Position numbers and translations under genes: made by a program. Shown here piece after piece: positions 40,901 to 46,900 of a DNA stretch of 64,000 nt (the first letter of the stretch is position 1; each line of letters begins with the position of its first letter). The notes below the pieces were generated by a model, which saw only the letters and a list, made by a program, of their open reading frames with translations, was not told the DNA's origin and did not search any database. The DNA comes from Tubiluchus corallicola. Its lineage: Eukaryota; Priapulida; Priapulimorpha; Priapulimorphida; Tubiluchidae. The stretch lies in contig JAQGDQ010000835.1 of NCBI GenBank assembly GCA_030141605.1, positions 26,305 through 90,304 on the forward strand. Direction: 5' to 3'.

Positions 40901-43900
40901 TTCTCTTTAAATTCATAGCAAAAGGGGGGACATGGTCGAGTGGTTAAGGCACCCTGCTTCGTGACGAAGTTAAAAATGTTGCTGAGGCCGGTCAGTGAGC
41001 AGATATATAAATCACCTGTTTCTTGTTCTGATTGGTTTCATTTGCCATGCTGACCGTGGCTGTTCACCTCGTAGAGCCATGTTGTATTACATTCAAACAT
41101 GCCTAAGACACCTGTGCCGCGACAGTCGCACATTTTAGAGCATGCTTTCATAATGAGTCAGGTTCTGGTATTGCCACGGTCATCTGCTTTGAGTAGGACC
41201 TGCCATTGAATTCTGGATTCCAGCTTGAGTGGGTATATAAAAATAAAGAGGTTTGCGTTTAAAATCCGTTTGAATTTTTAAAAAAAGGCAAAATGTTCAG
41301 CAAAGTTAGGCTTATTTAAACGATTGCGAAAAATGATAGAATGATTTAGCAGTAAAATTGCGATAAGCGCCTTACGTAATTAGTAAAATCACTTTAAAGC
41401 CGTGATAAATGATCATTCCATGCTTGAACACTCACATTTTGAACCACCGTTCCTCCACCGATGATGTTATTCGTCGACTGAAGGAAAACGCCACACTGTC
41501 AACTTCCATCAAAAGTGTAATAAGTTTTTTTGAAAACTTAAATTGGTAATTTTGTGATATTTTTGCCTGGACATTAAGTAAGCTGCAGAATTACTCAAAT
41601 TAAGCCACTGTGCACTTACAAAATGTCATGGAATTCACGATTTACATCATAATGTACAAGCGAATGGCGGCTACCACCATACCTGAAAATTTCTATGCAG
41701 CAGTAATATAACGTAACTTTATTATTTATATAAAGTTTTGTTGCAAATTTCTTTGTTATATTTTTCTAAATTTAAAGCAAAACAGGATTTTAATGTACTA
41801 CCCCATTTTCAAGTCCGATGAAAAAGTACATTTTAACACTAGTGTAATACTGACAAATCAGCGATTTCTGATCATATTCACAGGGTTGGATGATCCCCTC
41901 AGATGTACCCCACAGCCAAAATATTAGATATCAAAAATGAGCCGTTTCGGAGATAGGCCGCCATTTTGATTTTTTTCGGATTTTGGCCATTTTGACGTAA
42001 AAAAATGACCTATATTTGTCACATCATTACAGGCAGTAAATGAATGATCCAGGACTAGTTGCTCTGTGGTATATATAGTAGGGGTCTTGCCCTATTGCCA
42101 CATTGAGTTTGATGAATTGAGATTCTCTTTCAGTAGGTATCATGAGCTCATGAAAGATGCGTGTCTGCTACAGTCTGAATGACACCTTGTTTTAAAATTC
42201 TCATAACTCCACTGGGGCGGGTATTTGAAGTATAATTAATATATGTTTATTTACAGCTTGACCAGGCATACTTAGATCATTGATAAAATTTTGGCCAGCT
42301 CGTCCATAAATTGACGAGATTCGATCTTGAATGTGACATAAATCGGAAAAAAATTAGTACGAATTATTAATAATTCTGAATAAAAAATGAAAATTTCAAA
42401 AAGAAACGATAAATTACAGTTTCTGTCTCTCTCTGTCTCTCTGTGTCTCTGTCTGTCTCTCTCTCTGTGTCTCTGTGTCTCTCTCTGTCTCTCTCTCTGT
42501 CTCTGTCTCTCTGTGTCTCTCTCTGTCTCTCTCTCTGTCTCTGTCTCTCTTTGTCTCTCTCTGTCTCTCTGTGTCCTTCTCTCTCTCTCTGTGTGTCTCT
42601 CTGTGTCTGTCTCTGTCTCTCTGTGTCTCTCTCTGTCTCTCTCTGTGTCTCTGTGCCTCTCTCTGTCTCTCTGTGTCTCTCTCCGTCGCTTTCTGTCTCT
42701 TTGTGTCTCTGTCTGTCTCTCTGTGTCTCTCTCTGTCTCTCTGTGTTTCTCTCTCTGTCTCTGTCTCTCTCTGTCCCTCTGTGTCTCTCTCTGTCTCTTT
42801 TTATGTCTCTGTCTGTCTCTCTGTCTCTGTGTGTCTCTCTCTGTCTCTCCATCTGCCTCTCTGTGTCTCTCTTTGTCTCTCTGTGTCTCTCTCTGTCTCT
42901 CTCTCTGTCTATTATATATATTACAAAATCGCAATATCTGCATAAAGATAAATGATTATATGTCCGATCAATATCGATGCAATTTAGGACTCCCACAGGG
43001 GTCAGTTATAGCCCCAATACTGTTTATATTTTTCATTGCAGATATGTTTTATAATATGCATGACTCTGTTAAAAAGTACAAGTATGTTGATGATGGATCT
43101 TTGCATGTGTCAAATACAGACCCGCAAACCTGTGTTACAATTGCACAAAGCTGTTGTGATGTGCTTCACAAATGGTGCCAGAAATGGCGTTTAAAGATAA
43201 ATACGTTACCTGGTAAGACAGAAGCATTGCTAGTAGGGGCATGGGATGAAAATAACAAGCCAGACAATTTAAAAATTAGTAACAATGAAATATTGTTTGT
43301 TGAAGACAGCAAAATATTAGGCCTAACTGTTGATCGGAAATTAACATTTGTTAAACACGCGGGCAATGTTCATAAAAAGGTATGGTATAGATGGTTGAAA
43401 GTAAAAAACAATTGCAGTAAATATGCAGGTTTGCGACTTGCTACCATTGTAAATATTTATAAAACTACTATTTTGCCGATTATACTGTATGGTGCTATTG
43501 TATGGTTAGGTAAAAAACTTACTGTATTTGAAGATATAACCTATGATATAATGAAAGTTTCTGCGGGGTTGGCTTTTAAACCAGATCGTACTAAATTGGA
43601 ATTACTTTGTGGTCTTCCACCGTTAGACATTGAACTAAATGTAATTGTGGTTAAATCATGTCTTAAGACATTATGTCAGAGCGCTGATGATTTAGTAAAA
43701 CAACAGATTCTGCGGTATGGTAGTGCACGTCTGACAGGAAGACATATTTATAAAAATATTATGTATACAAATGTGCAGACTGTGAGAAACTTGTTAAAAT
43801 TTGTCTGGAATGAAAACTTTCGTAATACAGATCTTGAACAAATTCCTGAAAATATGTTAATTTATACCAAACGTCAAATTACAGATTATGTTTCTTATAC

Positions 43901-46900
43901 CTGGGCAACTAAATATAGGCATGTTATGCAATTTCGAGGAGATAATGTTGAAATACAGAATATAAAATGTACACCCTTAAATTTGCCACTTGGAAATAAT
44001 GAAAGGAAAATAGAATCCATTGCCATGTCCTTTTTAACTGGCCAGGGGAATTTTAACAGCTTTTTGTATAGACTTAATATGTGTGATACTAGTTTATGTC
44101 CATGTGGAGAAGAAGAGCAAACTCCTCAGCACATTTTATTCAGATGTAATAAAATAGATAATGCAAAAAGAATGCCGTTCATGGAAATAGCTGATGCCAA
44201 TTATACACGTAATATTATGCTTCAATCTGATAAAAATTTAATAATGGCTTTCACTAACCTGATCAGGGACAATTTTATACTAAGTAACTGTTAATTTAGG
44301 CCCGCTCCAGTATAAAAAAATAAATTATGTAGTTGTGTAAAGTTAATTTGTTTGTATAATACTTGTGATTCGTTTGAAGTTATATCTAATTTAAGTATAA
44401 AATGTTATTCGTTGTACATAGTGTGAAACTGGATTTAAAAGATTTGTTATGTGAAAATGTAAATTGTTAATCTGAGCCTGCAAAAAGAGGCACCTTTGTG
44501 TATATATATTCATTTCTTTAATAAAGATTTATTATTATTATTAAAAAAAATATCTCTGTGTCTCTCACTGTCTCTCTGTGTCTCTCACTGTCTATCACTG
44601 TCTCTCTCTGTCTCTCTGTGTCTCTCTCTGTCTCTCTGTGTCTCTCTGTGTCTCTCTCTGTCTCTCTCTGTCTCTCTGTGTCTCTCTCTGTCTCTCTGTG
44701 TCTCTCTCCATCTCTCTGTGCCTCTTTCTGTCTCTCTGTGTCTCTTTGTGTCTCTGTCTGTCTCTCTCTGTCTCTCTCTCTCTCTGTTTCTGTCTCTCTC
44801 TGTGTCTCTTTCTCTGTCTCTGTCTGTCTCTGTCTCTCTCTGTGTGTCTCTCTGTTTCTGTGTGTCTCTCTTTCTGTCTCTCTGTGTCTCCATCTGCCTC
44901 TCTGTGTGTCTCTCTCTCTCTGTGTCTCTCTCTGTCTCTGTGTGTCTCTGTCTCTATCTCTATGTGTCTCTCTCTGTCTCTCTGTGACTCTCTCTGTCTC
45001 TCTGTGACTCTCTCTCTCTGTCTCTCTGTGTCTCTCTCTGTCTCTTTTGATAAGGAGGTTACCATAGCAACACATAGTAGCAGCTTACTGTATGTATTAT
45101 CAATTATTAGCTTATTATTATTTACTATAGTGCGACTTTTCATTGAATATTGGCGAATAAAAAATAGTCGTGGACGTAAAGAATTTGTTGTTGCCTTTTT
45201 GCTATTTTGAAAATTTGCGATTATAAGCGTCAGCGCCCTGATTCTCGTTAGAGTTTAGTTGAATATGGTAGTCGGTGTATATGCGTATATCTTTACGAGA
45301 CGGTGGAAACCTGGCGGTTAAATACAATATGAGCGAATGGCTTGAAACATACGTTACACAGAGTCCGAGGCAGGGTCGTACTGGCCTTTGCTGCGTTTCT
45401 TAACTAGTTTTTTTGTTAACGCCCGTTGTTAGTAAGCAGAAGTCTGGTTGTCGAAGTTGCCACACCAAGGTATTAGTAACTAACTAACTATTAACTTGAA
45501 TTGATTTGAGGAAAAATATCAGGGACTGACAACTATTCGCCTGTTGAATACAAGACCACGCAAAGCTGTGCGCGTTTTAAAAATTGGCTCGCAACATCTT
45601 ATATTCGATGCTCACGGCGGTTTCAACACAATTTCACAAATAGTGCCTTGTCTCGCCTTGCCCGCCTTACTTTAGAATCTTGTTTAGCAAAGCGATACTA
45701 AACCTTTTTGACTGAAGTCTATTTTTCAGTCAAGACAGTGGGGCCCTCCCGAGGCCCCCGTATTGATCCACGGGCCATAGGTATATAGCCCGAGCACTTG
45801 TACACGAAACTGTTATTATGTACATGAAATTATTCCGTGTTTTATACAGATTATAAAAATCACTATGTTGTAATCGTCACAGGGGCCCTTCGAAGGGAAT
45901 GCGGCCCCTGATGAGGGGCCTGGTTGCTAGGAGTGCCCAGGTTGTACACGAAACTGTTATTATGTACATGAAATTATTCCGTGTTTTATACAGATTATAA
46001 AAATCACTATGTTGTAATCGTCACAGGGGCCCTTCGAAGGGAATGCGGCCCCTGATGAGGGGCCTGGTTGCTAGGAGTGCCCAGACATGTAAAGCCAGTC
46101 CATTATTACTATAAACATTGACGTTGCTGCACTTTGTATCGATTCTAATGGCAACACCGTCATCCAAAGCGAATAGCTAAATATAGGTCAAGGTTGTGAA
46201 AATGGCAAAAAAGAGCAACTTTGGCTAAAAATTCTGGACTCTTGGGAGATCGCTGGCCAAAATTTTATTTCATGCATTTGTAGGACTAGTCAAGCTGCAA
46301 ATAAAAATATATTGATTAGTCCCCCAATACCCGCCCCAGTGGAGTTATGGGGATTTCAAAATGGCGTCTAAATTCAGCAGCAGCAGACACGTATCTTTTG
46401 CAATCTGATGACACCAACTGAAAAGGAGGTTCAATTTGGCAACGATAATGGTACGGTAGGGTAAGACCCCTACTATATATATCACCAATTAACTAGTGCT
46501 GGATCGCTCATTTACTGTCTGTAATAACGTGAGAAATAATGGGCAATTTTTTACGCCAAAATGGCCAAAATCCGAAAAAATCAAAATGGCGGCTTTTCTC
46601 AGAAACGGCTCATTTCTGAAATCTAATATTTTGGCTGTGGAGTACATCTGAGGGGACCATCAAACCCTGTGAATATGAACAAAATCGGTGATTTGTCACC
46701 TTCCACTATTTTGCTGATTTTCTCACGGAATGACTCTTAAAAACTTGATTAATGGCAGGCGAGCCCAATTATTGATGACATCACAAACTAACATAATTTT
46801 CAACAGCAAGAATATTCAATGAGCATGTTGCACATGTTTGCGAAAGCGAAAATTGACGTACAGTGCTACTGTAGATGTTCAGTGTGTTGTGCTAAAACTA

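Follow-up and report, generated by a model that had tools for sequence, protein, structure and literature searches.

A probable copy of a young non-autonomous, TTAA-inserting transposon family, nested in an older MITE in a putative DSCC1 gene of Tubiluchus corallicola

The element described here lies in a 64,000-nucleotide stretch of the Tubiluchus corallicola genome (the whole stretch analysed, hereafter the window), and very probably belongs to a young family of non-autonomous DNA transposons with about 40 copies in the genome. Its left and right terminal inverted repeats (TIRs) of about 490 bp are 81% alike, its tips read GAGTCATTCCG and its targets are TTAA sites, while its transposase would be encoded elsewhere and would most likely be of the Kolobok type. 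By the same reading, this copy landed in DSCC1 at a TTAA within an older, T2-like MITE, carries a TC-rich array that takes in LINEs, and has a left end most likely altered by assembly. The near-identical genome copies end at fixed points next to TTAA and lack coding capacity. The family is new, and no description of it was recognised in a literature search; the kind of element is already known, and the surprising part is its pairing with TC-seeking LINEs. With clear ends now defined, this young family is open to annotation and to tests of whether it still moves. The features of the window copy are as follows.

41776..41839, + strand: left half of the host TTAA MITE, with TTAA at 41772-41775 and the tip AGCAAAACAGG (alignment; blastn relatives at 16344-16435, 20715-20638 and other places)
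41840..41876, + strand: blurred left junction, which follows the inverted repeat with differences that match the host MITE; the element lacks its left TTAA and its outermost 38-48 bp here
41851..42299, + strand: left inverted repeat, lacking the outer tip (496 bp in the family consensus)
42300..42421, + strand: short unique segment belonging to the element and shared by the copies compared
42422..42904, + strand: TC-rich array, first part, with a unit of about TCTGTCTCTC
42905..44552, + strand: 5'-truncated LINE in the array, reverse transcriptase end (RVT_1) with an ATT-rich tail, absent from most fetched copies
44553..45045, + strand: TC-rich array, second part (repeat analysis)
45046..46251, + strand: unique right interior with no coding match, holding a 144-bp tandem dimer at 45798-46084 (for 45100-45700, 40 scored places of 44 candidates)
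46252..46736, - strand: complete right inverted repeat (486 bp in the family consensus), with the tip GAGTCATTCCG on the - strand
46737..46740, no strand: right TTAA target-site copy (sequence)
46741..47246, + strand: right half of the host TTAA MITE, ending at the TTAA of 47243-47246

Inverted repeats and ends of the element

The arms at 41851-42299 (+ strand) and 46252-46698 (- strand) were matched by blastn at 80.6% over 454 columns (E 6e-113), with a score of 464, whereas none of 300 shuffles scored above 28. The inverted repeats of about 440 bp claimed in a preliminary description of this DNA are thus real. Their inner ends are sharp, as that description expected of a single element, with 17 identical bases (ATAAAATTTTGGCCAGC) and no similarity beyond (shuffle fraction 0.43).

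The window's own assembly (GCA_030141605.1; 343.5 Mb, 2344 contigs) was searched with the left arm. The query gave 92 candidates, and 40 of the 40 scored places (the window itself and the duplicate of it on contig C2147 among them) matched at 97% or more over all 450 bases. The preliminary description had made its case depend on further copies in the genome, and since many exist, it holds in this respect. Twenty regions around left-arm matches were fetched.

In the fetched copies, similarity passes 41851 and 46698, the positions formerly given as outer boundaries, which are internal; it runs on to 46740 or a few bases more on the right, and the additional sequence amounts to 38 bp on the right and about 48 bp on the left. 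The true element end in other copies is TTAA followed by GAGTCATTCCG. This arrangement was found at all 18 readable right ends among the 20 fetched regions; on the left, TTAA adjoins the element in 20 of 20, with the tip intact in 18 and damaged in two (L009 and L027). The flanks differ. The right arm was not found in two of the 20 regions, L021 and L022, and L021 holds LINE-like frames. In the window, the right end is at 46736, and the TTAA at 46737-46740 lies inside the older TTAA MITE.

The termini named at first, TGACAAATCA and CACAGGGTT, are internal as well. For TGACAAATCA as an element end, for a TAGTG end (which we take to be hAT-like) and for a CACTA end with a 5-bp duplication, no convincing duplication was found in the window, and the genome copies put the true tips further out, which is why the search for a duplication in the window alone failed.

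Insertion site in DSCC1 and the two junctions

Profile matches place the element inside the putative DSCC1 gene: Dcc1 profile positions 19-66 were found to its left, within 40616-40900, and positions 68-119, 116-147, 141-216 and 270-319 to its right, in order, with positions 217-269 not found. The preliminary description had likewise nested it in a TTAA MITE in DSCC1, and overlooked the nested element's own use of TTAA. As it also stated, the outer flanks are the two halves of one TTAA repeat, which has relatives at seven other places in the window. These relatives lie at 16344-16706, 20186-20715, 11222-11721, 5962-6169, 48471-48922, 12360-12596 and 21094-21244.

The right junction is clean, with GACTC followed by TTAA and then by the host MITE. 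The left half of the host matches its relatives to about 41839, weak host similarity continues into the arm, and the right half resumes at 46737. The insertion point holds a single TTAA in the host MITE copies m20r, m6r and m21r (three of the six copies aligning there). Host copies m20r and m48r read TTAAAGGAA, and the window's host copy reads TTAAAGCAA, the mark of T2-MITEs being TTAA then AGGRR. Insertion of the element into a TTAA of this older T2-like MITE is seen at the right junction and, we infer, also accounts for the left one.

On the left side the window copy has neither the TTAA nor the outermost 38-48 bp, and it shows no target duplication. The bases 41840-41876 follow the inverted repeat, and the positions that differ from the repeat match the host MITE. 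Host similarity of 41842-41880 is modest (shuffle fractions 0.000-0.051 over five host copies); for the inner part of this segment alone, the fractions were 0.004-0.088 in one run and 0.029-0.355 in another. When the window was compared with contig C2147, the two agreed at 99.966% over 8890 bases, with differences only at 41861, 41868 and 41871, and at 100% over the next 10,000 bases; no difference was seen from 41872 to the end of the compared part at 60740. Judged by their lengths, the two contigs stop at the same base, which corresponds to window 64000. The left end of the element copy on C2147 reads TTAATTCCGCGAG, and its left flank has no match in the window. Two contigs with the same end sequence (regions L009 and L030) but unrelated left flanks were observed to meet at the element, and their meeting is likely an assembly join.

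Because the Dcc1 profile runs in order, and in view of the comparison with C2147, the order of the window appears to be right, the left flank of C2147 appears to have been misjoined at the repeat, and an assembly scar is the probable cause of the window's blurred left junction. A real deletion in the animal, removing the TTAA and the outer 38-48 bp and joining the host MITE to the repeat, is rather unlikely. The host CAC does join the TAGTG of the repeat, and damaged left tips are also present in two other copies (L009 and L027), but the sequence of 41840-41876 is mixed, agreeing with the host MITE where it departs from the repeat, and the neighbouring contig has just three differences in this part before passing into an unrelated flank. 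Read as a scar, the junction provides a case of an element blurring a contig join, here within a gene.

Candidate mobiliser

No transposase is visible inside the element, as the preliminary description had stated: the interior frames scanned against profiles matched no transposase family, and the one sub-threshold match was to MRP-S34 (16.3 bits against a cut-off of 24.5). A search with the profile PF20700, which we take to be a model covering the Kolobok transposase, gave no match anywhere, not in its own controls either, and so carries no information. An autonomous version bearing a transposase, for which the preliminary description had suggested a search, was not found. Of 33 pairs of facing tips, the three longest were examined for a transposase, and their contents proved to be LINEs; among nearly identical, paired tips, no autonomous copy thus came to light. 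Such a copy may lie at unpaired tips, such as those on C1209, C1725, C1944, C2029 and C5, or have more diverged tips.

The TTAA target and the purine-purine start suggest that the mobiliser is a Kolobok transposase and not a piggyBac one. In PMC9587614, 5'-RR ends together with TTAA are given as Kolobok marks and contrasted with piggyBac. Here, a 4-bp TTAA duplication is indicated by the TTAA at all 18 readable right ends and beside all 20 left ends (by the right TTAA only in the window copy), and the GAGTC tips at both ends of intact-tip copies provide 5'-RR and YY-3' termini. Mobilisation of the same element by a piggyBac transposase, another TTAA user, is improbable: the TTAA target sites of the copies would suit such an enzyme, but the tips start with GA, and the same source sets the 5'-RR ends of Kolobok against piggyBac, whose termini would not be of this form.

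Under the favoured Kolobok reading, a transposase encoded elsewhere would excise the element and reinsert it at TTAA, which in the case of the window copy would be the TTAA of the older T2-like MITE in DSCC1. Its variable TC-rich array takes up TC-preferring LINEs in one orientation, and the window LINE represents such an event.

As in the Kolobok superfamily (PMC9587614, PMC6004289), the target is TTAA, and the element has two purines (GA) at its start and two pyrimidines at its end; it differs in that the family has no transposase or found autonomous relative, and in that its arms are long (about 490 bp) and only 81% alike. KolobokP elements have long terminal direct repeats of about 450 bp, and their non-autonomous families measure 1.7-3.3 kb (PMC9587614). 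The terminal repeats found here are of similar length but in inverted instead of direct orientation, and single arms were not seen to be bounded by a short inverted repeat. The element resembles T2-MITE and Xmix (PMC6004289) in being a non-autonomous TTAA element, and the amplified internal simple-sequence segment of Xmix of Xenopus is comparable to its TC-rich array; the host MITE resembles T2-MITE in having AGGAA after TTAA in some copies. In contrast to these elements, the nested element starts with GAGTC, not AGGRR, and at 2.3-6.6 kb is not miniature.

Copies in the genome

Sixteen of the 20 fetched regions are complete copies of 2869-4292 bp including both TTAA (L024 contains 100 N), and the TTAA on both sides supplies the target duplication that the preliminary description had proposed to look for. 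The tip pattern, with up to 3 mismatches allowed, gave 90 matches in the genome and 3 for the reversed control; facing tips formed the 33 pairs, which span 2313-6602 bp and, since the pattern includes TTAA, are not independent evidence for TTAA. The right interior stretch 45100-45700 gave 44 candidates and was found at 40 scored places (C2078 and C2147 are the same DNA in the counts of this stretch and of the LINE 3' ends). An alternative in which a 450-bp repeat inserted twice independently, or was duplicated locally in inverted orientation, so that the arms would not be the ends of one element, is refuted by the genome copies and can hardly be true: no target duplication is visible within the window alone, but 16 of the 20 fetched regions have both arms and the interior enclosed by a pair of TTAA sites, and 33 facing tip pairs exist. 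Two arm patterns are absent from viral contigs, as expected of an animal repeat.

The consensus arms of the 16 complete copies are 496 bp (left) and 486 bp (right) long and 81% alike over 503 columns. Compared with others of their own side over the first 540 bases of these copies, the left arms show 97.8-100% identity (mean 99.0%) and the right arms 96.0-100% (mean 98.8%). As the arms are 81% alike between sides but about 99% alike within a side, the left and right ends have long been separate and the copies are young. A tip variant, CCACGAG/CCATGAG, was observed in C5, C692, C1159, C1274, C1732, C2222 and C2281, the two shortest copies (about 2.3 kb) included, and possibly marks a subfamily.

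TC-rich array and LINE insertions

The TC-rich array is a feature of the family; between fixed marks it takes up 697-2103 bp in the 16 copies, and in L033 148 bp. Non-array stretches were found in the arrays of three of the 16, namely a LINE of 731 bp in L020, a LINE-like tail of 153 bp in L014 and 125 bp at the array end in L025. The 144-bp dimer at 45798-46084 is perfect; it is present in 7 of the 16 copies, with a single unit in the other 9, and thus marks a subgroup. Rfam gave no match at gathering score in the window and two weak matches, far below the gathering scores, in the interior; one interior frame had no match among PDB sequences.

The LINE between the two array parts of the window has an RVT_1 match and is absent from most fetched copies. 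It is a later insertion and a separate event, and the TC-rich array belongs to the element; of the contents first described, the TC-rich arrays, the LINE and the 144-bp dimer are indeed enclosed, and the LINE does not count as part of the element. LINE inserts in the element array were also found at L014, L020, L034 (two), L035 and L032. The inserts of L032 and L035 and one of those in L034 gave a reverse transcriptase match; the other L034 insert has no Pfam match and was called a LINE by eye from its likeness to L032, and the L014 insert is LINE-like by its tail only. The endonuclease matches Exo_endo_phos families, more than one LINE type is present among the inserts, and the 3' end of the L032 LINE lies beyond the array, at a deletion. 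All seven array inserts have the same orientation relative to the element, as do two more in C1030, judged by position and strand. The insertion rate in these regions is biased, because L032, L034 and L035 were picked for length.

The exact 28-base 3' end of the window LINE was found at 54 genome places (reversed control, none), 6 of which lie, by position, inside copies of this element. The 3' flanks were read at the first 20 of the 54 in list order (L036-L055; two within the element), with no control-LINE baseline. By eye, 14 of the 20 flanks open with TC-rich DNA (12 of the 18 that lie outside the element), the other six being L039 and L040 (with identical flanks), L044, L045, L047 and L055; a stricter script label (few A in the last 90 bases) marked 8 of the 20 as TC-rich and 12 as not. 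By these counts, the family of the window LINE appears to prefer TC tracts, and its copies lie mostly at one simple repeat, as is characteristic of a microsatellite-specific LINE, when counted by eye (14/20; 8/20 by the script). Microsatellite-specific LINEs are known, for example Togen at (TG)n (PMC4640811). The family resembles Togen-type LINEs in lying mostly at one kind of simple repeat and in one orientation; it differs in that the repeat is TC-rich, the endonuclease matches Exo_endo_phos families and some targets are inside a mobile DNA transposon.

The TC array might conceivably be a mobile landing pad, by which the transposon scatters new targets for TC-specific LINEs, diverts these LINEs from genes and may carry landed LINEs with it. 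The repeated same-way insertions fit this reading, which is nevertheless given a low probability. Carriage of LINEs by a later jump and any benefit to host or element are hypothetical. Two kinds of mobile DNA appear to be linked here, in that a TTAA-inserting element spreads a simple repeat sought by certain LINEs.

Minisatellite arrays were also observed in the window at 4844-5346, 7752-8496, 29072-29564 and 63209-63595, with units of 74, 92, 56 and 105 bp, respectively.
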